Assembly: GCF_900109515.1 (NCBI RefSeq)
Contig: NZ_FOBD01000003.1
Coordinates: 124,001-188,000, forward strand
DNA length: 64,000 nt
Direction: 5' to 3'
Source: Paenibacillus sp. OK003
Lineage (GTDB): Bacteria; Bacillota; Bacilli; Paenibacillales; Paenibacillaceae
The translations under genes were made by a program, and so were the position numbers. The first letter of the stretch is position 1. Each line of letters begins with the position of its first letter. Of the stretch, positions 15,733 to 64,000 are shown one piece after another. The notes under the pieces are model-generated. The model had not been told where the DNA came from. It searched no databases and worked only from the letters and a program-made list of their open reading frames with translations.

Positions 15733-15742
15733 GAGATTGCTG

Positions 15743-15778
15743 TCAGGAAGGAAGGCTACCTTCCTTCCTGATTTTTTT
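15743..15778 (+). terminator. Intra-operon terminator/attenuator after the binding-protein gene
   Basis: A perfect 12-bp stem, CAGGAAGGAAGG (15744-15755) with CCTTCCTTCCTG (15759-15770), has a 3-base loop and is followed by A and seven T. It sits between the solute-binding protein and the first permease. Partial read-through would set a high binding-protein to permease ratio. Confidence 0.9.
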
Positions 15779-15838
15779 GAAGAACATATCGCTGGACGTT
15801 ATTCCGTTCAATATAAAGATGGATAGGAGCCTGATATT

Positions 15839-19314: not shown

Positions 19315-19364
19315 TTCAGTCGCTAATAAACGATGCGAAAAAGGCAATTCAGAGGAGGGAAATC

Positions 19365-20387: not shown

Positions 20388-20471
20388 GATGAACGGATCA
20401 ATATCGTTTAACCCCTAGCAGTCTCGAAGAGATGTCCGAGGTTGCATATCTTTTTGGAAGGAGCTATTTGT

Positions 20472-21458
20472 ATGTCCGAATTGCCTAAACCGCATCAACC
20501 TTTAGTTAAGCATATGTTTACTGCTGATCCTTCAGCGCATGTGTTCGAGGATCGCATTTATATTTATCCATCCCATGATCTGGATCACGACGGTCCGGTG
20601 AATGACAATGGAGATCAGTACAAGATGGAGGATTATCATGTGCTGTCTATGGCGGACACAGATTCACCCGTGACGGATCATGGCGAAGCATTGCATGTGA
20701 AGGATGTCCCTTGGGCGTCCAGTCAGATGTGGGCCCCGGATGCTGCGTATAGAAAAGGCACCTATTATTTGTTTTTCCCGGCTCGGGACCATGATGGCAT
20801 TTTCCGCATTGGCGTGGCTACGTCTTCTTCTCCGGCAGGACCATTCAAGCCGGAAGAGCAATATATGCAGGGCAGTTTCAGCATTGATCCCGCTGTGTTC
20901 GTGGACGAAGATGAGCAGGCTTATATGTTCTTTGGCGGGTTGTGGGGTGGACAGTTGGAGAAATATCAGACTGGAAGCTACATCGAACATGCGGAAGGAC
21001 CTGCTCCAGATGCTCCGGCGATCGGACCGAGAGTTGCGAAGCTGAGTGAAGATATGCTCTCAATGGCGTCGGAGGCGTTGGAGATATCCATCGTGGATCA
21101 GGAAGGAAAGCCGCTGACCGCAGGGGACGAGGATCGCAGATATTTTGAAGGACCATGGATGCACAAGTATAACGGGAAATATTATCTGTCTTACTCCACA
21201 GGAACGACGCACAAGCTGGTGTACGCCATGGGTGACAATCCTATGGGACCGTTTACGTTCCAAGGTACGATCTTGCCTCCGGTCATGGGCTGGACAACGC
21301 ATCATTCAATTGTACAATTCCGGGAGAAGTGGTATTTGTTCTATCACGATTGTTCCCTTTCCGGCGGCGTCGATTACAAGCGCTGCGTCAAATTTGCCGA
21401 GTTGACGTACAACCCGGACGGCACCATTCGCATGATTGAACCATATCCAGAGAAGTGA
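20472..21458 (+). CDS. GH43 arabinofuranosidase/xylosidase (single domain)
   Basis: This 328-residue cytosolic GH43 enzyme has catalytic residues D19 in FTADPSAHV, D139 in FSIDPAVF and E226 in YFEGPWMHK. It lacks the C-terminal sandwich of the other GH43, so it belongs to a different subfamily, likely the one annotated as arabinosidase or exo-oligoxylanase. AAGGAG at 20458-20463 points to ATG 20472 rather than the earlier in-frame codon at 20442. It is the last gene of the xylan operon and ends at a bidirectional terminator. Confidence 0.88.
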   Translation: MSELPKPHQPLVKHMFTADPSAHVFEDRIYIYPSHDLDHDGPVNDNGDQYKMEDYHVLSMADTDSPVTDHGEALHVKDVPWASSQMWAPDAAYRKGTYYLFFPARDHDGIFRIGVATSSSPAGPFKPEEQYMQGSFSIDPAVFVDEDEQAYMFFGGLWGGQLEKYQTGSYIEHAEGPAPDAPAIGPRVAKLSEDMLSMASEALEISIVDQEGKPLTAGDEDRRYFEGPWMHKYNGKYYLSYSTGTTHKLVYAMGDNPMGPFTFQGTILPPVMGWTTHHSIVQFREKWYLFYHDCSLSGGVDYKRCVKFAELTYNPDGTIRMIEPYPEK

Positions 21459-45544: not shown

Positions 45545-46927
45545 TTAATCTAAACTATCCAAGAAGGCTAATTTTCTCTGAATATAAGTTCGAGTTGCTT
45601 TAGTATCAATCGTGTTCATATATCCATGAACTTCTTTGCTCTCATGGATATCAGGAATATATAAATCTGTCTTGACCCCTAATTCTTTTAAGCGGTTATA
45701 ATAATCTTCAGCCTGATCTGGGAATGTCCCCGTGTTGCCATCCGTTATAAAAGTTGGAGGGAAATTACTCGTCGCTCTTGGTATTACATTTAAGGATTGT
45801 AAGATATCTTTATCAGCGCTAACCACCGGCTGACCAATGTATGCACTTCCTGATTGAGCGAAAATATAGTCAGTCACGATGTCTTCGGTTACGGTTCTAT
45901 GGCCCCGACTAAAGTCAAGAATGGGTACTTCTAATACTAAAGCTTTGATATCCGTAAGCTCTATGACAGGATTAATATCGATTTCTTTCGCATACTCAGG
46001 GTTAGCTTGAATTGTCACAAAGTCTGCAGCGATAAATCCACCTGCGCTTCCCCCGCCAAAGATTACATTGTTCATATTAATTCCGTACTGTTTGCCATTT
46101 TGCTGCATATATTGCACCGCTTCTGATAATTGTTTTATGGGTGTAGGGTGTATATATTCTGGAGCTAAAGCATAATTTATGGTCACCACATTATAACCAT
46201 GATCAACCATTAATTCATAATGATATAACATTGTATTTGAAGCCGCTCCTGCGTTAGGATCACCTCCAATTGAATCTCCCGCTATAAAGCCACCGCCGTG
46301 CACATAAAAGTATGTTGGACGTTCTTCATCCAATTGACCATCGGGTGTAATGATATTTAAAAAACTTCTTGGATACTTTTCTCCGTATTGAATATTCGTT
46401 GTTAACTGATATTTACCATCAATAGTTGTGGTAGTAGATGGTTCTGCTGTGTAAGTATTTTCTGCTCCAGAACTGCTTTGCAAATATAAAGCAACTGGCT
46501 TTGGCGTAGCTGTAAATAATATTAATATGGATGTCCCCAACATTAAAACAAGGACGAGAACCCATTTGCTAATTCTCAACGTTAATGATTTGAAACTTCG
46601 ATTCATTTTCTTATGCATGCCTAATGCAAAAATAATTAATGCAAACCCGGTTACTGCAAATGAAACTTGTGCAACTACAAATAATCCGATTTTATCAAAT
46701 ATCATCCAGAAGATTTCAGTAGCTATAAACAAAGCCGAGATACCTAACCAGGCACGATAGAGCTTTTCATTTAAGTGCTTCTTAACGACTAGAATATGAA
46801 CTACAGACACAACCATGGCTGCGATTCCTAATGGGATAAGATAATTGATAAAAAATGACTGTGACCAAGACAATAAGATCGTAATTAACCCTACAATAAC
46901 TCCGCATAACCTCATACTAAATTTCAT
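45545..46927 (-). CDS. Membrane-anchored alpha/beta hydrolase (esterase-like)
   Basis: This 460-residue protein has five hydrophobic segments in the first 150 residues. An outward-facing alpha/beta hydrolase domain of the hormone-sensitive-lipase-like (fold-3) type follows. The oxyanion motif is YFYVHGGGFIAGD, the nucleophile elbow is FGGGSAGGFIAA (GxSxG), the catalytic Asp is probably in TFITDGNTGTFPDQ, and His in EVHGYMN. It should cleave small esters outside the membrane; the substrate is unknown. AAGGATATG lies just before ATG 46927. The start overlaps the end of the MarR gene by 11 bases, so it is the second gene of a MarR-controlled operon. Confidence 0.85.
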   Translation of the reverse strand: MKFSMRLCGVIVGLITILLSWSQSFFINYLIPLGIAAMVVSVVHILVVKKHLNEKLYRAWLGISALFIATEIFWMIFDKIGLFVVAQVSFAVTGFALIIFALGMHKKMNRSFKSLTLRISKWVLVLVLMLGTSILILFTATPKPVALYLQSSSGAENTYTAEPSTTTTIDGKYQLTTNIQYGEKYPRSFLNIITPDGQLDEERPTYFYVHGGGFIAGDSIGGDPNAGAASNTMLYHYELMVDHGYNVVTINYALAPEYIHPTPIKQLSEAVQYMQQNGKQYGINMNNVIFGGGSAGGFIAADFVTIQANPEYAKEIDINPVIELTDIKALVLEVPILDFSRGHRTVTEDIVTDYIFAQSGSAYIGQPVVSADKDILQSLNVIPRATSNFPPTFITDGNTGTFPDQAEDYYNRLKELGVKTDLYIPDIHESKEVHGYMNTIDTKATRTYIQRKLAFLDSLD

Positions 46928-47399
46928 TTTTAACCATATCCTTCTTTATATTATTTAATTGTGTATCAATAACAGATAAATATTGGTTTAATTCCTCCAG
47001 TTCTCTAACGGTGAGTTTGTTTCCTAAAGGCATCAATACAGCCAGTATTTTCTGTCTTTCTTCCAACACAATGTGCTGTCCTTTTTCTGTTAATTCAAGC
47101 CACACCACTCGTTTATCTTTCTCGTTATACTCACGTTTAATTAATTCTTTATCCGTTAATCGATTCACGATAGCAGTAATAGAACTTTTTTTGACATTAA
47201 GTGCTTTAGCCAAAAAACTGGCTGTGCAATGATCAGTCGTATTAATGACATTCAATAAATTAAACTGGTCTGGAGTAACACTGCTATCTTTAGAGATATT
47301 CTTCTGAATAGATTGCATGCTAATTGAGATTGATATGGCTCTCTGTGTATACAGATCAATATGTTGTTCTAATTGCTTTCTATCCACATCCATATCCAT
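46917..47399 (-). CDS. MarR-family transcriptional regulator
   Basis: This 160-residue MarR protein has helices FNLLNVINTTDHCTASFLAK and a recognition helix LNVKKSSITAIVNRL. The wing is DKELIKREYNEKDKRVVWLEL. Tandem starts exist; AAGGAG 9 bases before the ATG at 47399 favours this over 47420. A nested palindrome downstream of its promoter's -10 box (47421-47459) is the likely autoregulatory operator. It overlaps the alpha/beta hydrolase gene it probably controls. Confidence 0.88.
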   Translation of the reverse strand: MDMDVDRKQLEQHIDLYTQRAISISISMQSIQKNISKDSSVTPDQFNLLNVINTTDHCTASFLAKALNVKKSSITAIVNRLTDKELIKREYNEKDKRVVWLELTEKGQHIVLEERQKILAVLMPLGNKLTVRELEELNQYLSVIDTQLNNIKKDMVKNEI

Positions 47400-47420
47400 A
47401 GTTAATTGCTCCTTTATCAT

Positions 47421-47486
47421 ATTAGTTTCATTGTCTAACGGTTAGAGTGTGAAACTAATATTAACAGCATGTTTTTTGTAAGTCAA
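47421..47486 (-). promoter_or_regulatory. MarR operon promoter and nested palindromic operator
   Basis: On the minus strand, TTGACT (47486-47481), a 17-base spacer and TAATAT (47463-47458) form a promoter. Overlapping its start site is an outer inverted repeat ATTAGTTTCA/TGAAACTAAT (47421-47430, 47450-47459). Within it lies a perfect 13-base palindrome TCTAACGGTTAGA (47434-47446), fitting a MarR dimer site. Confidence 0.78.
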
Positions 47487-47549
47487 CAATTGAAAAAAAG
47501 GCAAATGTTATTGTTAGTTAAGATTCTTCGTTCTAAACACTTGTCGAGA

Positions 47550-47621
47550 GACAAGAACGTAGCCCCATTTGAAAGTCGCTATTTTAGCGGCTTTTTTTAT
47601 TTAGCGATACAAGTTCTTGTC
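47550..47621. repeat. Dispersed terminator-like repeat, copy 4 (full length)
   Basis: Outer arms GACAAGAAC (47550-47558) and GTTCTTGTC (47613-47621) are perfect inverted repeats. The inner stem AAGTCGCTA/TAGCGGCTT (47573-47592) plus T7 matches copies 1-3. It insulates the second carbohydrate locus from the MarR region. Confidence 0.82.
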
Positions 47622-47674
47622 CCACTTTCCGGGATGAGCTGTTGGAACGATCCAAGGCACACGTCCTTAATATC

Positions 47675-47728
47675 TTATAAGAAATTCTTGAAATTTCAGA
47701 AATTTATCCGATAGGGGGGTGCTAATAT
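47675..47728 (+). promoter_or_regulatory. Promoter of second carbohydrate locus with direct-repeat activator site
   Basis: AGAAATT occurs at 47680-47686 and again at 47698-47704, an 18-base period, within TTATAAGAAATTCTTGAAAT and the bases to 47708. A TAATAT -10 box follows at 47723-47728, with no -35 consensus. A nearly identical site precedes the giant gene at 58500. Direct repeats overlapping the -35 region are typical of AraC-type activators, and a YesN-type regulator is encoded in this locus. Confidence 0.62.
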
Positions 47729-47757
47729 ACAAATACAAACAAAGACGAGGTGATGAT

Positions 47758-48705
47758 ATGCACGTGAATTTGGCAGCGGACGCCATTCCCCTCTCCAAAA
47801 AGCGGAAGTCATGGATAAGGACGATCCAAAAATATAAAGTGATGTATGCTCTTTTATTACCAGCCTTAATTTACTTTGCCGTATTCAAATACATTCCTAT
47901 GGCGGGAATATTGATTGCTTTTAAAAACTACAACCTGGCTTTGGGCGTATGGGATAGCCCATGGGTGGGATTCAAAAATTTTACGGATTTTATGAACGGC
48001 GTTTATTTCTGGGACATCATGAAAAATACGATTGTTATATCGCTGTATAAGCTATTGTTCGGTTTCTCCGCTCCCATCTTACTTGCTTTACTGCTCAATG
48101 AAGTTCATACCCAATGGTTTAAGAAAATCGTACAAACCATTACTTATTTACCCCACTTTCTGTCTTGGGTCATTGTGTATGGATTGATGGTAGCCTTATT
48201 AGCCCCAGGTGATGGCCTTTTTAATATGATTTTGAAGGAAAGTGGTTTTCAGCCCATTTCATTTCTAACGGAGCCTGCTTGGGGGAGACTGCTGGTCATC
48301 GCATCTGAAATTTGGAAGGACATTGGATGGGGAGCGATTTTGTACCTCGCCGCATTAGCAGGTATTGATCCAAGCTTATATGAAGCGGCTCGAATGGATG
48401 GCGCTTCCAAATGGAGACAGCTCTGGCATATCACGTTACCAGGCATTCGAGGAGTCATTATTCTGATGCTGATTCTTAAATTAAGCCATATTCTGGATGC
48501 TGGCTTTGACCAAATATTCATGTTTGCCAACACCTTTAACCAGGAGAAGATCGACATTATCGACACATGGGTATACCGTGAAGGGTTGGAGCGTCTTAAG
48601 ATTGGCTTGGCTACTGCTGTAGGATTGTTTAAAGCTGTCATTGGATTTGGTTTAGTTTTGGCAGCCAATAAGCTCGCCAAAAAATTCGATGGGCAAATTT
48701 GGTGA
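47758..48705 (+). CDS. Sugar ABC transporter permease (LplB-like), second locus
   Basis: This 315-residue permease has six membrane segments. Typical LplB features are KVMYALLLPALIYFAVFKYIP at the N-terminus (residues 24-44), GILIAFKNYN, and an EAA loop YEAARMDGASKWRQLWHITL. GAGG at 47747-47750 points to ATG 47758. A longer frame from GTG 47719 would begin upstream of the predicted transcription start and is rejected. The first gene of a seven-gene carbohydrate locus; the ATPase is supplied elsewhere. Confidence 0.89.
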   Translation: MHVNLAADAIPLSKKRKSWIRTIQKYKVMYALLLPALIYFAVFKYIPMAGILIAFKNYNLALGVWDSPWVGFKNFTDFMNGVYFWDIMKNTIVISLYKLLFGFSAPILLALLLNEVHTQWFKKIVQTITYLPHFLSWVIVYGLMVALLAPGDGLFNMILKESGFQPISFLTEPAWGRLLVIASEIWKDIGWGAILYLAALAGIDPSLYEAARMDGASKWRQLWHITLPGIRGVIILMLILKLSHILDAGFDQIFMFANTFNQEKIDIIDTWVYREGLERLKIGLATAVGLFKAVIGFGLVLAANKLAKKFDGQIW

Positions 48706-48718
48706 GGTGGTTTTTAAA

Positions 48719-49588
48719 ATGATCCATTTGACAATCGGGGAAAAAGTCTGGCAATCCGTCGTTTATGTGATTCTTATTTTCTTATCACTACTTTGCTTAC
48801 TACCCTTTCTGTATGTGATTGCTGTCTCCGTGACGCCAGAATCGGAAGTGTTAAGAAGAGGGATTGTGATTATACCAGAATCTTTTACCTTTCTAGCCTA
48901 TAAAGAAGTATTCATTTCTCATGGGATCTGGCAGGCGTATAAAATTACGTTGTTTCGAACGATTGTAGGCACGGTGCTTAATGTGTTATTTACGGTCTTA
49001 GCAGCTTATCCGTTATCCAAAAAATATTTGCCGGGACGCAGTCCGTTTTTACTATTCATTGTGTTTACCATGATGTTCAGTGGGGGGTTAATTCCGACTT
49101 ATCTACTAATTCGCTCTCTAGGGTTGCTAAACAGTCCGTGGGTATTGATTATTCCAAATCTCATTAGTGCATTTAATCTGGTGATCATTAAAGGCTTTTT
49201 CGAGCAATTGCCTGGTGAAATCGAGGAATCAGCGAGGGTTGACGGTGCAAGTGAACTTCAATCGTTATGGCGGATCATTTTACCACTGTCTTTGCCCGTC
49301 ATTTCCACCATTTCTTTATTTTACGCAGTCGGGCATTGGAACAGTTATTTTGATGCTATTGTTTATATCAATGATTCCAACCTCATGCCGCTTCAAGTAG
49401 TCTTGCGAAACATCCTTCTTAACGTCGCAACACAAAGCGCTGAGTCGCTCGCCAATTCCGGAGCTGTAAGTACATTCGCTGTGCAGATGGCTACAGTTGT
49501 TGTGACTACGATTCCGATTTTGATCGTTTACCCATTTTTACAGAAGCATTTTACCAAAGGTGTGCTCTTGGGATCCGTTAAAGGTTAA
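48719..49588 (+). CDS. Sugar ABC transporter permease (YtcP/LplC-like), second locus
   Basis: This 289-residue permease has six membrane segments. Blocks are LPFLYVIAVSVTPESEVLRRG, an EAA loop EESARVDGASELQSLWRIIL and the C-terminal FTKGVLLGSVKG. GAGGTGG at 48703-48709 fixes the start at ATG 48719 rather than the in-frame ATG at 48689 inside the previous gene. It pairs with the LplB-like permease to form the channel. Confidence 0.89.
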   Translation: MIHLTIGEKVWQSVVYVILIFLSLLCLLPFLYVIAVSVTPESEVLRRGIVIIPESFTFLAYKEVFISHGIWQAYKITLFRTIVGTVLNVLFTVLAAYPLSKKYLPGRSPFLLFIVFTMMFSGGLIPTYLLIRSLGLLNSPWVLIIPNLISAFNLVIIKGFFEQLPGEIEESARVDGASELQSLWRIILPLSLPVISTISLFYAVGHWNSYFDAIVYINDSNLMPLQVVLRNILLNVATQSAESLANSGAVSTFAVQMATVVVTTIPILIVYPFLQKHFTKGVLLGSVKG

Positions 49589-49653
49589 AAGGTGTTCCAA
49601 CCTAACTTATTACGGGGAAACCGTGATAATATACAAGCAAAGGAGAGGTCAAT

Positions 49654-51240
49654 ATGCAGCATAAGAAGATTTCATTTGCTATTCTGTCGGCAATCTTAGG
49701 ATTGGGAACGCTACTGTCAGGATGTGGGGGAAATGAAGAAGTTACATCGATAGCTTCGGGTAATTCGCAAGGGCAGTCTGGCCAGTTTGCAACCAAAATG
49801 AAAATCTCAATGTTTAACCAAGGCACTTTCAACGCTGCTGCTCCGGTACCTCCACGTGATGAAGATGTTCAACGTCAAATGTTGGAAAAAGAGATGAACA
49901 TCGACTTGGATATGATGATTCCTCAAGCTGGGCAAGCAACAACCAAACTGAATACACTCATTGCAGGTGGAGATATTCCAGATTTGATCTTCTTGAAGAG
50001 TCGGGCTGATCTCGCGCAATATTACGACCAAGGCGTTCTTTCGGATTTGACACCGTATCTGGATCAATTCCCTGAATTAAAGAAACGGTTTGGCAACGAC
50101 TCATGGGATGCAATGTCCTATCAAGGAAAAACGATTGGAGTTCCAGGCTATGATAATGTTAACGGTATCAGTCGAAGCTTCTTCATCCGCAATGATTGGC
50201 TGAAAAAGCTGAATATGGAGGTACCAACGACACCGGATGAGTTGTTCGAAGTTATGAAAGCCTTTACAGAGAAAGATCCGGACGGGAATGGTAAAAACGA
50301 TACGTACGGATTTATCGGCGGTATGAATAAAGAAGGTAATCTGCAAACCTATGGCTTCGATAGCTTGATGTGGATGTTTGGTGTCAATCCTCCTTCGGCC
50401 GTTGAGATAAAAGATAATGAACCGGTATTTCTGTTTATCGATCCCAAAATGAAAGAGGCGCTTGCTTACATTAACAAAATGATGGCCGCCAACGTGGTAG
50501 ACCCAGACTGGGTGACGATGAATTCGCCCGATCTGTTGGACCAAAAGATGTTTAAGGGTAAAGTTGGCTTCATGATCAGAGATGCCCGTAGGCTGGAGCC
50601 GGATTATCAGCAGAAAATGAAAGAGATTAGTGGCGAGGTGCCGGAATGGATCGTCATTCCTCCGATGAAAGGTCCTTACGGGGATCAAATTGTAGAAAGA
50701 AAATCATTCCAAGGTAATTCATGGGCCATTTCCGCGAAAGCGGATAAGGACAAAATCATTCGGATCTTGTCCATGCTGAATTATCTCTTTACAGACGAAG
50801 AAGCTTATCCTAACTTTGCATACGGAATTAAAGGCATTCATTGGGATGTGGTGGACGGCAAGATCAAAAATAAAACTTCCGAGTTATCGAAGGAAATGAA
50901 AGAGAAGTACCTGTGGGTCGATCATTATAGAATGCCGCGCCGTGGTGATGATGCGGAGTACTTCAGCTTCCAGAATCCGAAGACGGCGGAGGCTTTCAAG
51001 GACAATCAGCAATATGTGGGGCCAACGTTGCCCGGAAATTTATTGACTCCAGACCCAAGCGATACTTTGGATGCTGACCGCACTCGTTTCATTAATGAAA
51101 GCTTAGTTAAATTTATGACGGGCAAAGAACCTCTTTCGAATTGGGACAATTTCCTCCAAACATTGGATACCAAGTTTGACATGCAGAAATATAAGGAAAC
51201 AGCAATCAAACAATTTAAAGAGGCCGGCCTTATCAAGTAA
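49654..51240 (+). CDS. Extracellular solute-binding lipoprotein (LplA-like), second locus
   Basis: This 528-residue lipoprotein has signal ISFAILSAILGLGTLLSGC with the lipobox Cys at about residue 24. The mature body has SBP family-1 features: IAGGDIPDLIFLKSRADL, FFIRNDWLKKLNMEVPTTP and DPDGNGKNDTYGFIGG. It is clearly different from the binding protein at 14059, so it binds another glycan. AAGGAGAGG at 49639-49647 precedes ATG 49654. It follows the permeases, the reverse of the order in the xylan locus. Confidence 0.9.
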   Translation: MQHKKISFAILSAILGLGTLLSGCGGNEEVTSIASGNSQGQSGQFATKMKISMFNQGTFNAAAPVPPRDEDVQRQMLEKEMNIDLDMMIPQAGQATTKLNTLIAGGDIPDLIFLKSRADLAQYYDQGVLSDLTPYLDQFPELKKRFGNDSWDAMSYQGKTIGVPGYDNVNGISRSFFIRNDWLKKLNMEVPTTPDELFEVMKAFTEKDPDGNGKNDTYGFIGGMNKEGNLQTYGFDSLMWMFGVNPPSAVEIKDNEPVFLFIDPKMKEALAYINKMMAANVVDPDWVTMNSPDLLDQKMFKGKVGFMIRDARRLEPDYQQKMKEISGEVPEWIVIPPMKGPYGDQIVERKSFQGNSWAISAKADKDKIIRILSMLNYLFTDEEAYPNFAYGIKGIHWDVVDGKIKNKTSELSKEMKEKYLWVDHYRMPRRGDDAEYFSFQNPKTAEAFKDNQQYVGPTLPGNLLTPDPSDTLDADRTRFINESLVKFMTGKEPLSNWDNFLQTLDTKFDMQKYKETAIKQFKEAGLIK

Positions 51241-51251
51241 AATAAATAAAC

Positions 51252-51285
51252 AAAGAGAGTGGCTATTCGTAGCCCCTCTCTTTAT
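51252..51285 (+). terminator. Hairpin after the binding-protein gene
   Basis: AAAGAGAG-GGCTA pairs with TAGCC-CTCTCTTT around a TTCG tetraloop (51252-51284), followed by ATTA. The T-tract is weak, so partial read-through into the kinase gene is likely. Confidence 0.7.
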
Positions 51286-51334
51286 TAGCATATGCTATTC
51301 TTAGTTTACTATAGAATTAAAAGGAAGATGATGG

Positions 51335-53074
51335 ATGCGAAGAAGAATCAGCTTGCCTTTAAAATTATTTTTTCTCGTGTTTGCATTTGTATTAGGGTGC
51401 ATCATCTTGATAAGCCAATTGTCTTATCGCTATGTCCAAAAGGAAATAAGAACCAATGACATTTTTTACACCAACCAAATCCTTGACAAGGTAGACCAGT
51501 ACTTCACTGTTAATTTTTCTTCCTTCCAGACGATTCTCTTCTCAGTCGAAACATCAGTGAAAGCCAATATTGACAATGCGGAAGTGATTAAAAAGCAATT
51601 AAGAGAACTGTATGAACTCAATAGTAGTTACGTCAGTAATATATATTTGATCAAAAGCGATTTATCCATTCTAGGCGGAAGTACAGCTACCCGAATATTC
51701 GATGAACCTTTATCTGAAAGAGCACCTTTGTTTGATGCGGCTGACAAGAACAGAAGGACTACCTTTGTTAGTGAACCTTACAAATCGAAGTATTCCGGCT
51801 GGACCGTTACGATGGTTCGATATCTGAACGGCGCTCCGTTTCCTATGGCCATTGCGGTTGACTTGGATCTAAATGCCATTGAAGAAACCTTGTTCAAGAT
51901 TAATAAACAAGAACAAATGAATCTGGCTCTGATCACAGCGTCAGGTAAAATCATTGCCGGATTTTCTGAAAATAAAGGACTACTGAATATTCAAGATCAT
52001 ACGTTTTCGATCGGGGAAACGTCAGCGGAACAAATTCTGGATACGACAGAAACAAATCTTCAACTGCATACGATGGATGGCATTCCGGTCTCCCTTCTAA
52101 AAAAACCGACGGAGAAATTCAACTGGACTATCATCTCAATCAATGATGAATCACGCTTGAAAGCAGCTTTGTCCAGATTAGAAACCTATTATATTGAGCT
52201 TTTAGCTGCAGGTCTTCTCTTAAGTTTGATCATTTCTTTTTTGGTTGCCAAATATATAAGGAAACCACTCTATACACTCAAAACAAAAATGAAGCAAGTG
52301 GAGCAAGGCTTACTCACAACGACAATTACGGTTAATCGAAACGATGAGTTTGGAGATCTTTCACGAGCATTCGATCGTATGCTGCAGCAAATTGTGGAAC
52401 TGATTCGGCGAGCGGAACTTCATAATGAACTTGAGCGGAAGTTGGAAATCCAGGTGCTGCAGTCTCAAATTAACCCTCATTTTCTGTATAACACACTTGG
52501 TTCGATCAGCAACGTTATACGTCTCGGACAAATAGAGAAAGTAGATGTGGTGATCGGATCGCTCATATCATTATTGGAATACGGGATAGACGATGCTTCA
52601 GAGAAGGTTTCCTTACGTCAGGAACTACGCAATGTAGCGGACTATATCGAGATCCAGAACATTCGGTATAACCGAAACTTCCACTTGATTGAACATATCG
52701 AAGCAGGGTTAATGGATTTTCCTGTTTTTCGAATGCTGCTGCAGCCTCTTGTGGAGAATAGCATCTTCCATGGTTATAACGGAGGGGGAATTGAGGGGCC
52801 TATTACGATTCATGCGTACAGGGAGGACAGTATCGTCATCATAGAAGTTGTTGATCAAGGCGAGGGAATTCCAGCTGATAAAATAAAGCATATTTTAACC
52901 TCAGAACCGAGTGAAATGGAACTAAAAAGGAAAAGAATCGGGCTAAATAATATTCATGGCCGAATAAGACTTCACTATGGCGATCAATTTGGACTGCAAA
53001 TCATTAGCATACCTAAGGAAATAACCCGTATACGCGCTGTATTCCCGGCCGAATTGCAAAAAGGAGATGCATAA
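51335..53074 (+). CDS. YesM-like sensor histidine kinase, second locus
   Basis: This 579-residue kinase has membrane segments at about 7-30 (FFLVFAFVLGCIILISQLSY) and 285-307 (LLAAGLLLSLIISFLVAKYI) enclosing a roughly 250-residue dCache-like sensor. HAMP follows, then the phospho-acceptor LQSQINPHFLYNTLGSISNV. The ATPase shows LLQPLVENSIFHGY, EVVDQGEGIP and RIGLNNIHGRIRL. It presumably senses an extracellular glycan fragment and phosphorylates the AraC-type regulator that overlaps it by one base. AAAGGA about 10 bases upstream precedes ATG 51335. Confidence 0.9.
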   Translation: MRRRISLPLKLFFLVFAFVLGCIILISQLSYRYVQKEIRTNDIFYTNQILDKVDQYFTVNFSSFQTILFSVETSVKANIDNAEVIKKQLRELYELNSSYVSNIYLIKSDLSILGGSTATRIFDEPLSERAPLFDAADKNRRTTFVSEPYKSKYSGWTVTMVRYLNGAPFPMAIAVDLDLNAIEETLFKINKQEQMNLALITASGKIIAGFSENKGLLNIQDHTFSIGETSAEQILDTTETNLQLHTMDGIPVSLLKKPTEKFNWTIISINDESRLKAALSRLETYYIELLAAGLLLSLIISFLVAKYIRKPLYTLKTKMKQVEQGLLTTTITVNRNDEFGDLSRAFDRMLQQIVELIRRAELHNELERKLEIQVLQSQINPHFLYNTLGSISNVIRLGQIEKVDVVIGSLISLLEYGIDDASEKVSLRQELRNVADYIEIQNIRYNRNFHLIEHIEAGLMDFPVFRMLLQPLVENSIFHGYNGGGIEGPITIHAYREDSIVIIEVVDQGEGIPADKIKHILTSEPSEMELKRKRIGLNNIHGRIRLHYGDQFGLQIISIPKEITRIRAVFPAELQKGDA

Positions 53075-54696
53075 TGGTGAGAGATTATACCTGCTTCATT
53101 GTTGACGATGAAGACCTGATCATTCAACGATTGGAATTGTTTTTTAATGAGCTCTCTCATAGGGATAAGCGATTTGTTCTAGTGGGCAAAGCGAATAATG
53201 GGCTGAATGGGATCGAGGAGATCATAAAACTGAAGCCGGACATCGTCATATCCGATATCGTTATGCCGCGAATGGACGGAATCTCCATGATTGAGCAGCT
53301 CAAGAGGGAGCTCCCCCATACGCAATACATACTTTTGACCGCCTATTCATCCTTTGAATACGCCCAGCGAGCGATTCAAGCCAACGTATTGGAGTACATT
53401 GTAAAGGTTCCGCTGAGGGAAGCGGATTTGAATCGAGCTTTGGATAAAGCAGCCGGGATTTTAAATGAGTTCAAGAAAAAAGAAGCGGAATTTCAATCGT
53501 TAAACGTATCCGTGCTTGAAAATAAATACAGAGTGCGCAAGCAATTTTTTAACGAACTGATCAGAGGCGAAATTCCTTCTCATCGGGCATCGGATTTTGC
53601 TAATCGCATACAGTTTCATTTCTTTCAAGCCAACTATTGCTGCTTCATCGTTGAGATGAATACGTATGAAAGTTTCCGAAACGAATACGCTGCCGCAGAT
53701 CAAAACATCTTGAAATATGCGATTACGAATATCATCGAAGAAACGGTGATGAATGGTGGTAGTGGGGTAGCTGCGGATCTGTCCGATAATCGTTTTATTG
53801 GCTTTCTATCCTGGGAAAATAACCGTAGTGATATGGAAACGGAATATGCTTGCCTATCCTTGGGAGGGCAGATCGTCTCTCATTTGCATCAATATTTGAA
53901 TCAAAGGGTATCTGTTGCTTTTGGCGGTCCACACCGAGGCTGGGAATCGATCAAACAGGCATACACGGAAGCTAAAAATGTGAGTGAGGATTTCTATTAT
54001 CATACAGAAAAAGTCGTAAAAACACCGATGCATCGGTTCCAATACGATAATGACAAAAAAGCAGACTTTCAGCAGAAGCTGGCTGATTTTCTTATACGGA
54101 TGAAACGAAAGATTTCCAAGGAAGAGCTGGAGGATGCACTTGCCGATCTGAGCCAATTTGTTACGGACCATAAAATCCACAAGTCCATTATGGCACCCAT
54201 GATTAGAGACTTGTACAGAGACATTACCGTAAAGTTTAAATCAGGGAACAAGATGGCCACGGAAGTCCCAGACTTTCCCATGGAATTTATATCTTTTCAG
54301 GAGCAGCTTGCCTATATTGGTGACTTCACATTCGAATACGTACACGCGGGCCAACGATTACATCGTGCAGAAATCATGAGTGCTATGCATTTTATCGAGA
54401 AAAACCTGAAACAACGCTTAACGTTGGAGGCCATTGCGGAGGAAGTGAATCTAGCGCCATCGTATTTTAGCAGCTTATTCAAAAAAACAATGAGCGAAGG
54501 CGTGATCAGCTACATCAACCGTAAAAAAATCCATCTCGCTCTCGAGTTGTTAAACGTCCGGGATTATTCTTTATTGGAATTGTGTGAGGAAGTAGGCATC
54601 GTCAATGAAGGTTACTTTTGCAAACTGTTTAAAGAATATACGGGTGATACACCTAAGCAATATCGGATAAAAATGACACGGTACGAATCCAAATAA
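53074..54696 (+). CDS. AraC-type response regulator (YesN-like), second locus
   Basis: This 540-residue regulator has a receiver (FIVDDEDLIIQRLELF; phospho-Asp in IVISDIVMPRMDG). The usual YLLKP motif is YIVKVPL, with the Lys kept but the Pro displaced. A central linker follows, then an AraC domain (LEAIAEEVNLAPSYFSSLF; LLELCEEVGIVNEGYFCKLF). ATG overlaps the kinase stop (TAATG at 53072-53076), so they are coupled. It is the best candidate to bind the AGAAATT direct repeats upstream of 47758 and 58500. Confidence 0.9.
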   Translation: MVRDYTCFIVDDEDLIIQRLELFFNELSHRDKRFVLVGKANNGLNGIEEIIKLKPDIVISDIVMPRMDGISMIEQLKRELPHTQYILLTAYSSFEYAQRAIQANVLEYIVKVPLREADLNRALDKAAGILNEFKKKEAEFQSLNVSVLENKYRVRKQFFNELIRGEIPSHRASDFANRIQFHFFQANYCCFIVEMNTYESFRNEYAAADQNILKYAITNIIEETVMNGGSGVAADLSDNRFIGFLSWENNRSDMETEYACLSLGGQIVSHLHQYLNQRVSVAFGGPHRGWESIKQAYTEAKNVSEDFYYHTEKVVKTPMHRFQYDNDKKADFQQKLADFLIRMKRKISKEELEDALADLSQFVTDHKIHKSIMAPMIRDLYRDITVKFKSGNKMATEVPDFPMEFISFQEQLAYIGDFTFEYVHAGQRLHRAEIMSAMHFIEKNLKQRLTLEAIAEEVNLAPSYFSSLFKKTMSEGVISYINRKKIHLALELLNVRDYSLLELCEEVGIVNEGYFCKLFKEYTGDTPKQYRIKMTRYESK

Positions 54697-54795
54697 GGAT
54701 ACAAAAAATGTATGATTTTTTCGTGAAATCCTGTAAAAAAAAAGAGGCCAAAACCATTACCATGATAGGAGCATCTAATCATGGAGGTTATCAAA

Positions 54796-57012
54796 ATGGA
54801 GCTTATGAAAGCAGATGTAACCGTCGTAGGTGGAGGTATTGCAGGGATATGTGCTGCCATTGCAGCTGCACGCCAAGGTCTGCAGGTTTCACTTATTAAT
54901 GATCGGCCGGTGCTTGGGGGAAATGCGAGCAGCGAGGTCAGAGTTCATATCAACGGGTCGGCATATCTCGGAAATAGTCCATCCTATTATGCCCGCGAGG
55001 GCGGGTTGGTAGAAGAACTCAAGCTGAAGATCTTTCATTATAATCCGTTATACAACAAGAAGCTTATGCTTTCGCTTTCGGATACGGTCTTGCTCGACAT
55101 GGTTTATGATGAGCCTAACATTTCTCTGTTTCTTAATACATGTGTACATGAAACGGGCATGGAGAACGGCAGAATTCAATGGGTGGAGGGCCTTCAATTA
55201 GCTTCCGAAAGAAAATTTCGTTTTGAAAGCCCAACCTACATTGATTGCTCCGGTGATGGAATAGTTGGATACCAAGCAGGTGCTGACTTCCGATGGGGAA
55301 GAGAAGCGAAGCATGAATACAAGGAGGAGCTTGCTCCAGAAGTGGCGGATCATTACACGATGGGCGATACGATTCTGTTTCAAGCCCGTGACGTAAACTA
55401 TGCCGTTCCTTACAAAAGGCCTGGCTTTGCGTATGATATCACGAAGCTGGAGTTTTTCGAAAGTATCCGAAAAGGATTAAACCATCGGTCTTTTCCAAGG
55501 AAAATCAACGGACTTGGTGGATTGTGGTGGCTGGAATACGGCGGACATATGGATATTATCAAGAATAATGAAGACATCGCATTGGAATTGCGGAAATTGG
55601 TGTACGGGATCTGGGATTATATCAAAAATAGCGGTGAGTTTGATGATGTAGACAATCTCATCTTGGATTATGTATGCCCGATTCCGGGAAAGCGGGAGTC
55701 AAGACGGTTTATCGGGGAGCACATGCTGTCTCAGAACGATCTTACAGCAAAGACTCATTTCGAAGATGCTGTATCCGTCGGGGGCTGGTATATGGATCTG
55801 CATGCGAATAAAGGCATCTACGATGAGGGGCCGGCTACAGCGTGGAATTTCGTGCCGGGATTGTATAATATCCCTTTCCGCAGCTTATTTTCACGTAATA
55901 TTCCTAATCTCATGTTCGCTGGCCGCAATATAAGCGCTACCCATGTAGCTTTTGGGTCTACAAGGGTGATGGCGACCTGTGGTTGTATGGGGCAGGCGGT
56001 AGGAACAGCTGCTGCGTTATGCGTAAAATATGACACAGACCCCGCGGACATCGTCAAAGCGCATATGGATGAGCTTCAGACGCAGCTGCTACGAGACGGG
56101 CAAACGATTGTAGGGCTTCAAGAGCCGTTGGATCCTTATTTTGCTGATGGATTAACGATTCGTGCCTCGTCTCAGCGAAGCTATGAACATCTTCATCCAA
56201 CCGAAGAGATCTCCTTGGAGAAAACGTTATGTTTGGTCTTGCCGATTCAGACATCCGTGGCTGAAAGTGTGCAGATCAAAATTAAAAATAGATCCGAGCA
56301 TTCGGAAACGTTGCAAGTGAAGCTATTTGGTGGGGAACGGAAGGAAAACTATATTCCTGCAAGCGAGCTGAAAGGATACAACTTAGTGATTTCAGCGGGT
56401 TATGATGACTGGATCACGCTGGAACTGGGCTGCGAGAAACCGGCTGATGACAAGGTCTACATCGTATTGGAAGGTGCGGCGAGCCTTGCCGTAGACGGCA
56501 ATGAAGAGAAAATGACTGGAGCGGTGAGCTTCTATTATAGACCAGAAGAGCCATCCAGACTGAAGAAGCTTAATAAGAGTATTTGCTTTAAAGACCTATC
56601 GCCATCCCAAAATATGTATAGCCCTGAGAATGTCGTCAATGGCTTCTCCAGACCTTATGGTCTACCGAACAGCTGGATTTCTGAACGTTCAGAAGGACAG
56701 GAGTGGTTGGAATTTGCTTTTGCAAGCCCCAAAAATCTGGATGAAATCCATCTTGTTTTCAATTCGCAGCTGAACTTGGAGCATTTCGACGATCCGATCG
56801 AGCCATTGATTCAAGATTATGATGTGACCTTAACCTTAGAAGACGGAACCGAGAGTGAAATGAATATCCGTGGGAATTATCTTTCGTTGAATAAACATCA
56901 GGTGCATGCAAAAGGTGTAACCCGAATCCGATTTGATTTCTGTGCAACGTTTGGTTCGCCTTATTATGAAGTGTTTGCTGTCAAATTTTTTGCTCCTAAA
57001 AACGCGAAGTGA
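54796..57012 (+). CDS. FAD-dependent oxidoreductase with discoidin-like C-terminus
   Basis: This 738-residue protein has no signal peptide. The Rossmann FAD-binding motif VTVVGGGIAGICAAIAAARQ opens the protein. RPVLGGNASSEVRVHINGS and TYIDCSGDGIVGYQAGADF follow, as in the FAD_oxidored family (PF12831). ATHVAFGSTRVMATCGCMGQ is the second FAD-contact region. The last 160 residues form an F5/8-type galactose-binding-like sandwich (NVVNGFSRPYGLPNSWISE; LEFAFASPKNLDEIHLVFN). A sugar oxidation in the cytosol is plausible, but the reaction is unknown. GGAGG at 54783-54787 favours ATG 54796 over ATG 54781. Confidence 0.86.
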   Translation: MELMKADVTVVGGGIAGICAAIAAARQGLQVSLINDRPVLGGNASSEVRVHINGSAYLGNSPSYYAREGGLVEELKLKIFHYNPLYNKKLMLSLSDTVLLDMVYDEPNISLFLNTCVHETGMENGRIQWVEGLQLASERKFRFESPTYIDCSGDGIVGYQAGADFRWGREAKHEYKEELAPEVADHYTMGDTILFQARDVNYAVPYKRPGFAYDITKLEFFESIRKGLNHRSFPRKINGLGGLWWLEYGGHMDIIKNNEDIALELRKLVYGIWDYIKNSGEFDDVDNLILDYVCPIPGKRESRRFIGEHMLSQNDLTAKTHFEDAVSVGGWYMDLHANKGIYDEGPATAWNFVPGLYNIPFRSLFSRNIPNLMFAGRNISATHVAFGSTRVMATCGCMGQAVGTAAALCVKYDTDPADIVKAHMDELQTQLLRDGQTIVGLQEPLDPYFADGLTIRASSQRSYEHLHPTEEISLEKTLCLVLPIQTSVAESVQIKIKNRSEHSETLQVKLFGGERKENYIPASELKGYNLVISAGYDDWITLELGCEKPADDKVYIVLEGAASLAVDGNEEKMTGAVSFYYRPEEPSRLKKLNKSICFKDLSPSQNMYSPENVVNGFSRPYGLPNSWISERSEGQEWLEFAFASPKNLDEIHLVFNSQLNLEHFDDPIEPLIQDYDVTLTLEDGTESEMNIRGNYLSLNKHQVHAKGVTRIRFDFCATFGSPYYEVFAVKFFAPKNAK

Positions 57013-57029
57013 GGGCGGGTGAAGTCACG

Positions 57030-58238
57030 ATGAAGGAATTTTTCCCTCGAAGAGGGCTGCCTAATGTCATTCAAAAGTTGGAAAATGGGGAAACAGTAAC
57101 AATTGTCTATTTTGGCGGCAGTAATACGCGTTCTGAAGGATACAGGGTCATGACGGCGGATTGGCTGCGAGGGCAATATCCCCATGCAGATATCCGCTCT
57201 GTGAACGCAGGCATTGATGGGACAGGATCGGACCTCGGCTGCGCCCGTTTGCAGACAGATGTACTGCGTCATCAGCCTGATCTCGTATTTGTTGAATTTG
57301 TTGGAAACGATGGGGGAGTTCCCGAATCCAAAGCGCGGATCGAAGGTATTGTCCGACAGATTCGCAAGCACAGCCGTTTTACGGATATCCTGTTTGTGTA
57401 TACGGTTAAGGAACGGGATTTGACCTCATTTCAATCCGGCCAATACCAGAAGGGCGCTCGTATGCAAGAGGAAGTCGCCGACTATTACGGCATTCCTTCG
57501 ATTCATCTGGGCGTAGCAGTCAGTCAATTGGTTTTGGATGGAAAGCTCATTTTCACCTTAAGAGCAGACGTATCTATTCCCGGAGCCGCTATTTTTACGC
57601 ATGATTCGATCCATCCAACGATTCCCGAAGGACATCAGATTTACACGGATACAATCACCCGGTCGTTTGAGAAAATCAGAGAGCTTCGAGATCACGTAGG
57701 AAAAGTCGAACATCACTTGCCGCAGGAGTCTTTGGTCACGGCCAATCCTTGGGAGTATGCAACCATGCTGCCACTGGATCGTCTTACTCATTTTTCCGCG
57801 GGGTGGTCTTACATGACCCCTGATGATTTTGCTTTAGTGCGCGAGTATGATTGGTTGTTCCCCGGTCTATGGCGAGCAGTCGATCCCGGAGAGACAATCA
57901 CAGTGGAGTTTGAGGGAACCCACATCGGATTATTCGATATTGGGGGGCCGGATTCCGGCAGATTGAAGGTGACGGTGGATGAGGGTGAACCCTTTCTTAT
58001 CGATCGATTCACTTCATATAACGATCATAATCGAAATCAATATGTTTACTTACCGGAGCTACCGAATGGGAAACATACGGTTCGCTTCGAAATTGATCAC
58101 AAGAAGACAGACAAAGCGGCCGTGTTTGAGGCAAGTGGCAATGAAAGAGGTATGGAACATGTTCGACAACATCCGGCTTGGTATGATCAAACGGTCATTC
58201 AGCTTGGGAAGTTGCTATTGGTGCAGCCGCCATTATAA
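57030..58238 (+). CDS. SGNH/GDSL-type esterase, cytosolic
   Basis: This 402-residue protein has an N-terminal SGNH hydrolase domain. The nucleophile S31 is in VYFGGSNTRSEGYR (GGSN replacing the classical GDSL). Block II has VNAGIDGTGSDLG, block III VEFVGNDGG (N93), and block V HDSIHP (D192, H195). A C-terminal 140-residue beta domain (VEFEGTHIGLFDIGGPDSG) resembles the accessory sandwich of carbohydrate esterases. No signal peptide is seen. It likely removes acetyl groups from imported oligosaccharides. A GTG at 57009 overlaps the FAD gene; ATG 57030 with GGTGA upstream is preferred. Confidence 0.85.
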   Translation: MKEFFPRRGLPNVIQKLENGETVTIVYFGGSNTRSEGYRVMTADWLRGQYPHADIRSVNAGIDGTGSDLGCARLQTDVLRHQPDLVFVEFVGNDGGVPESKARIEGIVRQIRKHSRFTDILFVYTVKERDLTSFQSGQYQKGARMQEEVADYYGIPSIHLGVAVSQLVLDGKLIFTLRADVSIPGAAIFTHDSIHPTIPEGHQIYTDTITRSFEKIRELRDHVGKVEHHLPQESLVTANPWEYATMLPLDRLTHFSAGWSYMTPDDFALVREYDWLFPGLWRAVDPGETITVEFEGTHIGLFDIGGPDSGRLKVTVDEGEPFLIDRFTSYNDHNRNQYVYLPELPNGKHTVRFEIDHKKTDKAAVFEASGNERGMEHVRQHPAWYDQTVIQLGKLLLVQPPL

Positions 58239-58326
58239 TTGATTGGTCTACTTGGAAGACCTATATTCTATCTGACTGCAATGAGCGCTCAATTAGGATG
58301 TAGGTTTCTTTTTTTACTTAAAATCG

Positions 58327-58380
58327 TATAAGAAATTCTTAAAATGAAAGAAATTTCACGGTGATGTGACATGCTAAGAT
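58327..58380 (+). promoter_or_regulatory. Promoter of the giant gene with the shared direct-repeat site
   Basis: AGAAATT at 58331-58337 and 58349-58355, again with 18-base period, lies in TATAAGAAATTCTTAAAATG and the bases to 58360. TAAGAT at 58375-58380 could be the -10 box. The distance from second repeat to -10 (26 bases) is almost that of the site at 47675 (25 bases). Confidence 0.62.
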
Positions 58381-58499
58381 AGAAACGACAGAGCGGGATT
58401 AGCCAGAATGTTAAGGTTAATTGCTTTTTTACGATCATTTGATTAAAGGGGTATTACTTTTTGGAAGCGTTATCATTAATAGGAGAGGCTGTGAGTTGT

Positions 58500-61400
58500 A
58501 TGGTCAAAAGGAAGCTTTTTTTCTTCATCGTTTTCATGTTGACGATCGTAGTTCCTTCCAGCCTGATCGGAATAAGGGCCGCTTATGCGGAGACCTTACC
58601 TTATCAGACCATTATCATCGATGACGGGAGTATTAAGATTAATGATGTTGTGACACCTGATGCGGGTAACGAGAACAATGGATATTCGGCTCCAAATTGG
58701 ACCACAAGCACAGGGGTGAAGGGGTATGATCTTTCCAGCACCCAATATACGAGTACAGCAGGCAGAACGATAACATGGAACCCACGCTTGGAAGCAGGAA
58801 CGGCGAAAATATCATTCTACAAGCTGGATTGGGCGGATAAGGCTGATAACAATGTAAAAATTGAAATTGCTCATAATGGAACGACGGATGTAGTCTTTAT
58901 GGATTTAAGACCCTCATCTGGCGCTCCAGCGGGTTGGGTTGATTTGGGAGAGTACTATTTTTCCGGAGTTGGTGAAGAATTCGTTAAATTGACCCGGTCT
59001 ACCGGCACCACGAATACGATCCTTACGCGTGCGGATGCGGTAAAGTTCGAAGGGAATATAAGGCAGAAAGAACCACACAAGACGATCATCATTGATGATG
59101 GAAGCCTCACAATTGATAATGTCGTCACTGTTGATTCAGGCAACGTCAATAACGGGTTCTCCGCTCCATATTGGACCACAAGCGCAGGAGTAAAGGGATA
59201 CAATAATTCCAGTTCCAAATATACGGATGCTGTAGGTAGAACGATCACATGGAATCCGCGCTTGGAAGCAGGGACGGCGAAAATATCGTTCTATAAGCTG
59301 GATTGGGCGGATAAAGCAGATAGTAATGTGAAGATTGAGATTGTTCATAACGGGATTACGGATGTTAAGTTTATGGATCTTAGACCTTCGTCAGGTCCAT
59401 CGGTTGGATGGGTGGATCTGGGGGAGTATGAGTTTAGTGGTGATGATAGCGAATTTGTCAGGCTGACTCGAACGCAACCTACGACGGGTACAATTATTAC
59501 ACGAGCCGATGCAGTCAAGTTCGAAGGTAATATCCGGCAGCAAGCACCACCGTTGCCCCCGCTACGGAGCCGCACCTTAGCGAATCTCAGTTACACGGAG
59601 AAAGGCAGCATCGAAAATGCGAACTATAAAGCGACCTTCTATGAAGCGGCATGGGATGGAGGCAAATCCATCGTTCGTGACATGTTCTACAAGAACACGG
59701 ACACGGGAAACTGGATGCCGATTAATAATGTATCGGAAAGACTTGAGGAGCAATGGGTTTTATTGGATGGGAATGCGGGCAGCCGAACCAATTACTACGA
59801 TACGATGAACAAACGCTGGATTACATTCGACGAGGTCCATTTTCCAGACAGCCACACGGCGGTGTTAACCGATTCTACGCATGGCAGTGATTACGATTTT
59901 GAAGTGAACTGGTCCATGGCAGGGGATAAACCAGATGTTTCCTTTGCCTTTACGCCTCGTCGCGACGGCAATTATGTGATTGGATATCAGTCCTTCACAA
60001 CAGAGGCAGTCTCGGGCATCAATGAAGTGTTAAATGGATTCAGGTCCCATGCCAAAATGGTAGGTACGGTGGAATCAACAAGCTTGAGAGAGCTGAGCGC
60101 TCCGATGAGCCTGGTTGAGAAAAATGATGGTTCGGGAAATCCATTAACGTATGGTCTATTTGTACCTTCGGCAGAGCTTCCGGTTGAATTTGAACCGACG
60201 GGAGGCGTTACGAAACAACGGCTTGGCATGAGTCTGGTTAACAACGAAGGCAGCGTGCAGCCAATCTTGTATGCGCCTCAATTAGGAACTTATTCGCAAA
60301 TGACCGCAGAAAGCACTTATCAATTTCATATGGGGCTAATCGCTCAAAAAAGCAATCTGTATGAATCCTACGCGGATATTCTTCGCAATGAGTACGGTTA
60401 TTCAGCATACCGCGAAAATGTGTCAGATCAGTCGCTTACTGACGCGATGTTTAATATGATCGATTTGCTTAAGATTGAGCCGCAAGGGGACGACTCTGTT
60501 AATTATGTTCCGTCACCCAGCGGGTGGTGGAGCCGTGCCAAGGGCTTTATTGATATCGAAAACGAGGATAGCGTCCGAACAAGCTCGAATGCGGTTCTTT
60601 TGGGGGCTTACTATTTGACTGGGGATGACCAGCTTTACGATACGAGAGCACTGCCGTCCGTCCAGTATGGCGTATCGCGAAATGGTATCGGTTGGTCGCC
60701 AACGCAGAAAAAAGTATACGGTGTGCCTTCGTTATGGAAAATGGCTACTCTGCCGTTCGATGTTTCAAGCGTAGCCGCCGTTAATCAGATGATGGGCACT
60801 TCGGCAGGAATTGGGGCGCTGGCACAGGAAGAGTACCTCATGCGAGACCCGGATCAGAAAGACAGGGGGCCTGTCATTCAACCCCTGATGATGTATCGGA
60901 TGACGGGAGATGCGAAGTATTTGCAAGCTGCGAAGGATGCAGCCGATAGTTATATCTTGCAATATATCGATACGCCTGCAACCGTGGATGTGAGTAAAAA
61001 TGAGTTCATTTATTATTATAGCAAGCTGTGGATGGAGATCTTGGAGCTATATGAGGAAACTCAGGATCCCAAATACTTGAATGCCGCTTATAAGGAAGCC
61101 AAACGGTATGCAACCATGTTTGTTGCTCGTCCAGTGCCTGAAGGTAACGTTACGATTCCTCAGCCTGAGACGTATAATTACGCGGAGTCGTTCCATTGGC
61201 CGGAAAGTGGTAAATTTCAATATCCTAGGCTCAAGCTTCCAGAAGATATAGCCGGAGGCGTTCAAGCGGATCGTTGGCTTGTTTCACCGAGCGGATTGAC
61301 GTTTGAAGCAGGAAGTACAACCGGCTATTATCGGATGAATGCTCAGGAAGCTCCATTCATGCTGAGATTGTCGCTCTATACAGGGGATAAACTGCTGCAG

Positions 61401-63563: not shown

Positions 63564-63633
63564 TGGCAGTGAATTGCGAATGGAAGTGGAACTAAGGTAA
63601 GTGATGTTAAACAAATGATTGTAAAATAACATA

Positions 63634-63672
63634 AGAGCCGAGTGGATGAGAACGATCCATTCGGCTTTTTTG
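63634..63672 (+). terminator. Terminator ending the second carbohydrate locus
   Basis: AGCCGAGTGGAT (63636-63647) pairs with ATCCATTCGGCT (63655-63666) with one G-T pair, followed by six T. Confidence 0.9.
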
Positions 63673-63731
63673 TTGAGTAATGGTGCGTATATCAGTATCT
63701 TCAGAAAGGATTCAGTTGCAAGAACCCTAGG

Positions 63732-64000
63732 TTAATCATTAAATTCAACAAATACATGCATATTTCGATCTACTCCTGCGATCCCGGTTGTTTGTTTAAT
63801 ATCCAAAAATTCAAGTCGTTCTTCCCATTCAACTCTTTCATGATCCGATTCATCTGCGTAATATTCAAAAATATACGTTAAGACAAATGCATTAATGGAA
63901 TTGGAGATGTAGATTTCTCTTCGGACGCAGCGCCGCTGGCGCTGAACCTTCAACAGGCCGCTGTTACCTATATCCACTACCATGTGGATTTGAATCATAG
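63732..64000 (-). CDS. C-terminal part of an unidentified gene (partial)
   Basis: A minus-strand frame is open from the window edge to TAA at 63734-63732 and encodes at least 88 residues ending MHVFVEFND. An ATG at 63998 is present but the frame continues to the edge, so the true start may lie outside. The sequence is rich in Glu/Asp (EYYADESDHERVEWEERLEF) with no motif I recognise. It is convergent with the giant golvesin-domain gene. Confidence 0.5.
   Translation of the reverse strand, partial: MIQIHMVVDIGNSGLLKVQRQRRCVRREIYISNSINAFVLTYIFEYYADESDHERVEWEERLEFLDIKQTTGIAGVDRNMHVFVEFND

Follow-up and report, generated by a model that had tools for sequence, protein, structure and literature searches.

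In Escherichia coli, the AraC protein binds at the pBAD promoter (I1-I2) to a direct repeat of approximately 21 base pairs (bp), in which the proximal half-site overlaps the -35 position, in a class II arrangement. The YesM-YesN pair of Bacillus subtilis serves a rhamnogalacturonan locus, and we know of no operator map for it; to our knowledge, two-component systems of this type occur often in these bacteria and have rarely been mapped. The present analysis concerns two near-identical elements of approximately 40 bp in a stretch of 64,000 nucleotides from Paenibacillus sp. OK003 (the window), one ahead of a transporter operon and the other ahead of the gene of a giant secreted protein, together with their candidate binder, the AraC-type response regulator that begins at position 53074. 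This regulator and its kinase have the same domain layout as YesM-YesN, and the DNA-binding domains are relatives in sequence (structure 3lsg), whereas AraC is a one-component sugar sensor, the regulator here has a receiver domain, and a 21-bp register is only favored at its sites.

In Caldicellulosiruptor bescii, according to one study, AraC-type two-component regulators have tandem-repeat sites upstream of promoters at carbohydrate loci; such sites, with large spacers, are given for three of the five regulators with AraC-type domains, which are predicted to be activators by comparative genomics (PMC8579813). As in the present locus, these two-component regulators stand beside CUT1 transporters, and the AviRS regulon includes the gene of a secreted enzyme, although both the genus and the genes are different (PMC8579813). 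The XydR regulator of the XydS/XydR system of Clostridium cellulolyticum is also an activator of the AraC type with a receiver domain, and gel shifts showed that it binds ahead of two distinct target units (PMC3572039). Unlike the present regulator, it targets the genes of CBM6-containing proteins, with clear predicted -35 boxes, and common sequences are listed there with no operator mapped (PMC3572039). The available portion of a review (PMC10766802) gives no operator for such systems. An earlier, sequence-only reading of the window considered that no site of this kind had been described for this gene set, and no paper on the gene set was found in the open-licence literature searched, while tandem sites as a type were already known (PMC8579813).

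Two Putative Operators and Their Promoters

The comparison of the window with related genomes makes it very probable that the two elements are operators of the YesN-type regulator, which would activate both the operon of its own transporter and the gene of the secreted giant. The conserved element, CTTAAnATCnTATAAGAAATTCTTnAAATnnnAGAAATTT, occupies positions 47666-47705 (site 1) and 58317-58356 (site 2), both on the forward strand, as are the two promoters and the eight genes of the locus. In site 1, CTTAATAT and CTTGAAAT stand 21 bp apart (47666 and 47687), and AGAAATT recurs at 18 bp (47680 and 47698). In site 2, the 21-bp repeat CTTAAAAT is perfect (58317 and 58338), and AGAAATT is again repeated at 18 bp (58331 and 58349). 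The near-identical pair reported by the sequence-only reading, AGAAATTCTTGAAATTTCAGAAATTT at 47680-47705 and AGAAATTCTTAAAATGAAAGAAATTT at 58331-58356, is thus confirmed, with the element beginning 10 bases upstream of the TATAAG noted in that reading.

The -10-like boxes of the same reading, TAATAT (47723-47728) and TAAGAT (58375-58380), are also present, and can be refined to extended -10 elements, given that TGC precedes both. The first of these (47720-47728) lies 36 bp after position 47687, with no -35 consensus, and the second (58372-58380) lies 37 bp after 58338. The distance from the second repeat box to the -10 is well preserved, at 36 bp in 71 of 82 distinct site 1 sequences and 37 bp in the other 11, while at site 2 it is 37 bp in 56 of 65, 36 bp in three and 38 bp in one, with no -10 found in five. 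The hexamers 17 bp ahead of the two -10 elements, AAATTT and AATTTC, fall within the element or at its end and show no -35 consensus. The site therefore overlaps the position of the -35 in the absence of its consensus, an arrangement which favors the class II geometry that had been proposed.

The conservation of the element was evaluated in non-redundant sets of 48 site 1 and 44 site 2 loci, from which sequences at least 85% alike (ungapped) had been removed. The most frequent base averages 93% over the 40 columns at both sites (mean top-base fraction 0.93), in comparison with 39% (site 1) and 40% (site 2) across the preceding 54 columns. Over the next 14 columns, the values are 78% and 76%, respectively, with 82% at the -10, and past the -10 they are 80% for site 1, towards the permease start, and 57% for site 2. 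As conservation drops less on the downstream side, the element has a sharp upstream edge and no sharp downstream one. When the two sites of one genome are compared, they share 86% identity across the 40 bp, and only 26-36% in the flanks (49 genomes), which rules out a larger or recent duplication as the origin of the pair. Given that the identity is confined to the 40 bp, it is explained by selection on the site.

Distribution of the Sites among Genomes

The genome scanned (G000) comprises 6.72 megabases (Mb) in 44 contigs, and the comparison sets contained 75 genomes of the genus and 394 of the family. An orthologue of the 53074 regulator was found in 27 of the 75 (E <= 1e-120) and in 64 of the 394 (E <= 1e-100). 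Named loci were also used (L135-L188, 54 of the 76 returned), 52 of which are labelled Paenibacillus and two Bacillus sp., which places the window in Paenibacillus or a close relative; the best-ranked, from P. taichungensis, has 98% regulator identity. In Paenibacillus sp. OVF10 (G054, locus L091, and L186), the genome search aligned only residues 175-539 of the regulator, and the named-record search residues 1-539, a possible frameshift.

When the whole genome was searched for AGAAATTCTT-N8-AGAAATT, allowing three mismatches at most, 44 places were recovered, a total not far from the 33 of the reversed control. Sites 1 and 2 were the only exact matches, and there were none with one mismatch, four with two and 38 with three, so that the pair holds the sole matches with zero or one mismatch in the 6.72 Mb. 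The 21-base pattern AGAAATTCTTnnAATnnnAGAAATTT, common to both sites, is exact in 25 of the 75 genus genomes and in 50 of the 394 family genomes, all of the latter among the 64 that carry the regulator and none among the other 330; its control pattern was found in none of the genomes of either set. All 75 exact matches fall at this locus, and the counts, genome by genome, equal those within the fetched loci. An extended pattern, with up to three mismatches, occurs in the genus at 53 places in 27 of the 75 genomes (two in 26 of them, one in G070), and in none of the 48 genus genomes that lack a regulator orthologue. Outside the genus, it occurs in 33 of the 37 regulator-bearing genomes, at two places in 21 and one in 12. 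The control gave no match in either case. In the four genomes without this pattern, the regulators are 36-55% identical, and one of these genomes (G111, locus L131) has weaker sites, matching 27 and 26 of the 34 consensus positions. With sites retained at a minimum of 24 of these 34 positions, site 1 is present in 61 of the 64 fetched loci, L132-L134 being excluded, and in all 59 of the loci with a regulator at least 80% identical.

The motif is thus not scattered over unrelated loci, and it is conserved in relatives, contrary to two of the three outcomes that the sequence-only reading had named as grounds for abandoning it: the genome scan and the relatives keep the strong matches at the locus, where the 40 columns remain conserved.

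Another part of the window (9023-21458) holds a xylan-type locus of like style, with two AraC-type response regulators, a kinase, two permeases, and GH43, GH10 and GH43 genes. In its two upstream stretches that were read (8430-9040 and 13840-14040), no copy of the 40-bp site was found, and the extended pattern occurs only twice in the genome.

The presence of the second site tracks that of the giant gene. In the 64 fetched loci, it is present in 48 of the 49 with this gene, versus one of the 15 without it, a group which includes L124 and L125, where the sequence ends early, L132-L134, with very distant regulators, and L130. The stretch examined for site 2 was the one behind the GDSL gene, and L130 and L132-L134 lack this gene. 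A search for the core of the giant in 16 genomes yielded matches in four, three of which are 27-29% identical, and in 11 genomes without the giant at the locus there was no genome-wide match at E 1e-30, one of these genomes (G199) being 72% complete. Locus L130 encodes (8774-13249) a 1491-residue secreted protein with no Pfam match, a distant relative of the giant that is 27% identical to part of its core. The protein sits at a new position, between the regulator and the oxidoreductase, and a site matching 30 of the 34 positions starts 95 bp ahead of its ATG. Sites confined to the locus, and tied to both the regulator and the giant, support the single local regulon with two promoters that had been proposed.

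Two loci are in decay, L181 (1-16500, P. phytorum) and L182 (1-18000, P. alginolyticus), in which the kinase, regulator and oxidoreductase are open and the permeases were not found. Fragments of the binding-protein, giant and GDSL genes persist in L181, and only the tail of the GDSL gene in L182. Both loci retain sites despite the loss of the permeases, in L182 at 190 bp ahead of the kinase match.

The Half-Site Register

The 18-base period of AGAAATT, as described in the sequence-only reading, is real in both sites, and has a competitor in the 21-bp repeat, which is favored in the majority of the relatives that have diverged furthest. In a first shuffle test of seven chosen sites, with shifts of 12-28, 21 bp ranked top or joint top in all seven (z 2.4-3.4), tied with 18 bp at site 1 of this genome, although in raw counts, without shuffles, shifts of 9, 10, 13 or 18 equal or exceed 21 in several sites. 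A wider test covered 99 distinct sites and shifts of 7-30. Among close relatives, the mean z at 9, 18 and 21 bp was 2.5, 2.2 and 1.8, respectively, for site 1 (43 sequences), and 2.2, 2.1 and 2.2 for site 2 (45 sequences); the best shift was 9 bp in 30 of the 43 site 1 sequences, and 21 and 9 bp in 21 each of the 45 site 2 sequences. In site 1 of the window itself, GAAATT occurs three times at a spacing of 9 bp (47681, 47690 and 47699). In the 11 sites whose regulators are less than 80% identical, the best shift was 21 bp in five, 18 bp in four, and 8 or 10 bp in two. Given this split, and the frequency of 9 bp in close relatives, the idea of 21 bp as the sole settled register was dropped.

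The same regulator may, then, recognize the 18-bp AGAAATT repeats as its half-sites, instead of the 21-bp CTTRAAAT repeats, and this is a possibility of some substance, albeit the less probable of the two. The mean scores of the close relatives are compatible with it, and 18 bp outscores 21 bp in the three sites of L181 and L182 (regulators 78% identical), as well as at site 2 of L188 and at the second of the L130 sites. Where the regulators are 55-67% identical, by contrast, 21 bp outscores 18 bp in six of eight sites, in five of which p is 0.0007-0.015 at 21 bp, versus 0.06-0.44 at 18 bp. In site 2 of L131, the most diverged, AAAATCnnATAAA is an exact repeat at 21 bp and AGAAATT is lost. A spacing of 21 bp also places both subunits on the same side of the double helix, an arrangement shared with AraC, which counts against 18 bp. 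If the start is assumed to be at 47735, the 21-bp half-sites lie at approximately -69 to -53 and -48 to -32, which would correspond to an AraC-like class II layout. The sequences as a whole lean towards 21 bp, with 18 bp possible.

The Probable Binder and Its Mode of Action

Whichever repeat is read, the regulator at 53074, which had been named as the natural binder, is by far the likeliest protein to bind both sites, judging from the comparison across genomes. Its DNA-binding domain matches AraC-type structures, including the response regulator 6swi, YesN (3lsg), AraC and MarA. The segment that we take, from the anatomy of AraC, to be its second recognition helix, NEGYFCKLFK, is kept in L130, L131, L181, L182, L185 and L188, all of which bear the operator, while L132 (NEAYFCTLFK), L133 (NESYFCTLFK) and L134 (NERYFCTLFR), with at least two changes, have no operator. 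The first recognition helix does not separate the operator-keeping loci from those that lack it.

Binding by another protein, either a regulator encoded elsewhere or the adjoining MarR-type protein (46917-47420), is unlikely. The MarR-like gene, whose family was named from sequence alone, is a divergent neighbor of site 1, but is present at only five of the 64 fetched loci, versus 61 for the site; MarR proteins do not typically bind direct repeats, and no strong site occurs in the 48 genus genomes without an orthologue of the 53074 regulator. It is more improbable still that the element represents an unusual promoter class, read by an alternative sigma factor, for while it extends up to a promoter with no -35 consensus, the conserved 40-bp repeat reaches far past the pair of boxes found in a usual promoter, the -10 belongs to the ordinary extended type, and there are only two strong copies per genome in the genus scan.

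A number of observations weigh against the assignment of both sites to the 53074 regulator as operators, which is predicted from comparison. No single half-site register fits best across the sites, and the disappearance of the motif where the regulator is distant tracks overall divergence as well as the change of helix. As the sites sit within the regulator's own locus, inherited linkage accounts for part of their co-occurrence in the genomes. The loci behind the conservation figures were preselected by a match to at least 24 of the 34 consensus positions, and conservation continues downstream of the site (76-80%, or 57% past the -10 of site 2), leaving only the upstream edge sharp. In addition, L115 retains a site (31/34) without the giant, while in L122 the giant lies a short way behind the GDSL gene and has no site 2, perhaps being expressed by read-through.

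If the regulator does act at these operators, it would be phosphorylated by the kinase encoded from 51335, a phosphotransfer that is likely given the adjoining, overlapping genes (51335-53074 and 53074-54696). The phosphorylated subunits would line up head to tail on the 40-bp element, with its downstream half over the place of the missing -35, and the regulator would thereby recruit RNA polymerase to the extended -10, in the class II activation suggested by the geometry. Site 1 would drive the operon that runs from the permeases and binding protein through the kinase and regulator to the oxidoreductase and GDSL genes, and, as this operon holds both the kinase and the regulator, the system would boost its own production. 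The giant secreted protein would be driven by site 2.

Organization of the Locus and the Giant Protein

The locus begins with two permeases of the ATP-binding cassette (ABC) type (BPD_transp_1), at 47758-48705, the first gene of the operon, and 48689-49588, followed by an extracellular solute-binding protein (SBP_bac_1; 49654-51240). The start of the first permease is probably the ATG at 47758, given that the GTG at 47719, from the list of open reading frames (ORFs), overlaps the promoter. With a pair of permeases, a solute-binding protein of family 1 and no ATPase of its own among the eight genes scanned, the locus has the layout of a CUT1 carbohydrate transporter. The YesM-like sensor histidine kinase (51335-53074; HAMP, His_kinase PF06580 and HATPase_c) and the YesN-like regulator (53074-54696; a receiver and a C-terminal AraC-type helix-turn-helix) have the domain layout of a YesM/YesN pair in the domain scan, which also identified a flavin adenine dinucleotide (FAD)-dependent oxidoreductase (PF12831; 54781-57012) and a GDSL-like lipase/acylhydrolase (57009-58238). 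As the neighboring genes between 47758 and 58238 overlap, or are separated by no more than 94 bp, they are consistent with a single operon.

A terminator-like hairpin stands ahead of site 1 (47571-47595), although such matches are not above those of shuffles in the region (17 vs 15.5). A small hairpin with a weak T tail lies between the binding-protein and kinase genes (51261-51274), a possible step-down in expression. The Rfam search of 46000-64000 returned nothing at gathering scores, and there is thus no known RNA family there.

The last of the eight genes encodes the giant secreted protein, a 1700-residue ORF with Golvesin_C domains (58500-63563). The ORF opens with the TTG at 58461, and the ATG at 58500 precedes a stretch like a signal peptide. 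A Pfam scan of the whole protein found Golvesin_C alone. Its core (59556-61994) is 74% identical even in L185 and L188, and no solved structure in the PDB resembles this core by sequence (best E 0.17), while an AlphaFold model based on 20 sequences reached a mean predicted local distance difference test score (pLDDT) of 49.

Generality and Implications

A general rule for the sister transporters of this genome found no support: among 54 alignments, made at two offsets for every -10-like box upstream of 30 of the 31 permease matches, only this locus reached at least 9/15 at 21 bp, in a test which is crude, as such operons need not start with a permease. In L132 and L133, with regulators 43% and 40% identical, the 21-bp repeat has p values of 0.013 and 0.70, respectively, and a -10 can be discerned by eye 36 bp downstream of the aligned box. 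With the L132 regulator as the query (E 1e-150), only the genomes of these two loci were matched among the 394, too few for footprinting. It is doubtful, though conceivable, that the YesN-type regulators of the family share a promoter grammar, in which a head-to-tail element of approximately 40 bp ends over the missing -35, with an extended -10 lying 36-37 bp from the second CTTRAAAT box, and letters that change with the recognition helices.

The pair of sites, which dozens of related soil bacteria have kept, is a well-supported and conventional gene switch, through which, most likely, one sensor system turns on both the import of a sugar and the production of a very large secreted protein. 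It places a candidate operator for a YesM/YesN-type system to within a few bases, and predicts that dozens of Paenibacillus genomes co-express the uptake operon with the giant; the gene losses and the rearrangement observed in relatives represent ready natural tests. The shared grammar, if true, would make it possible to deduce the operators of many orphan sugar loci.

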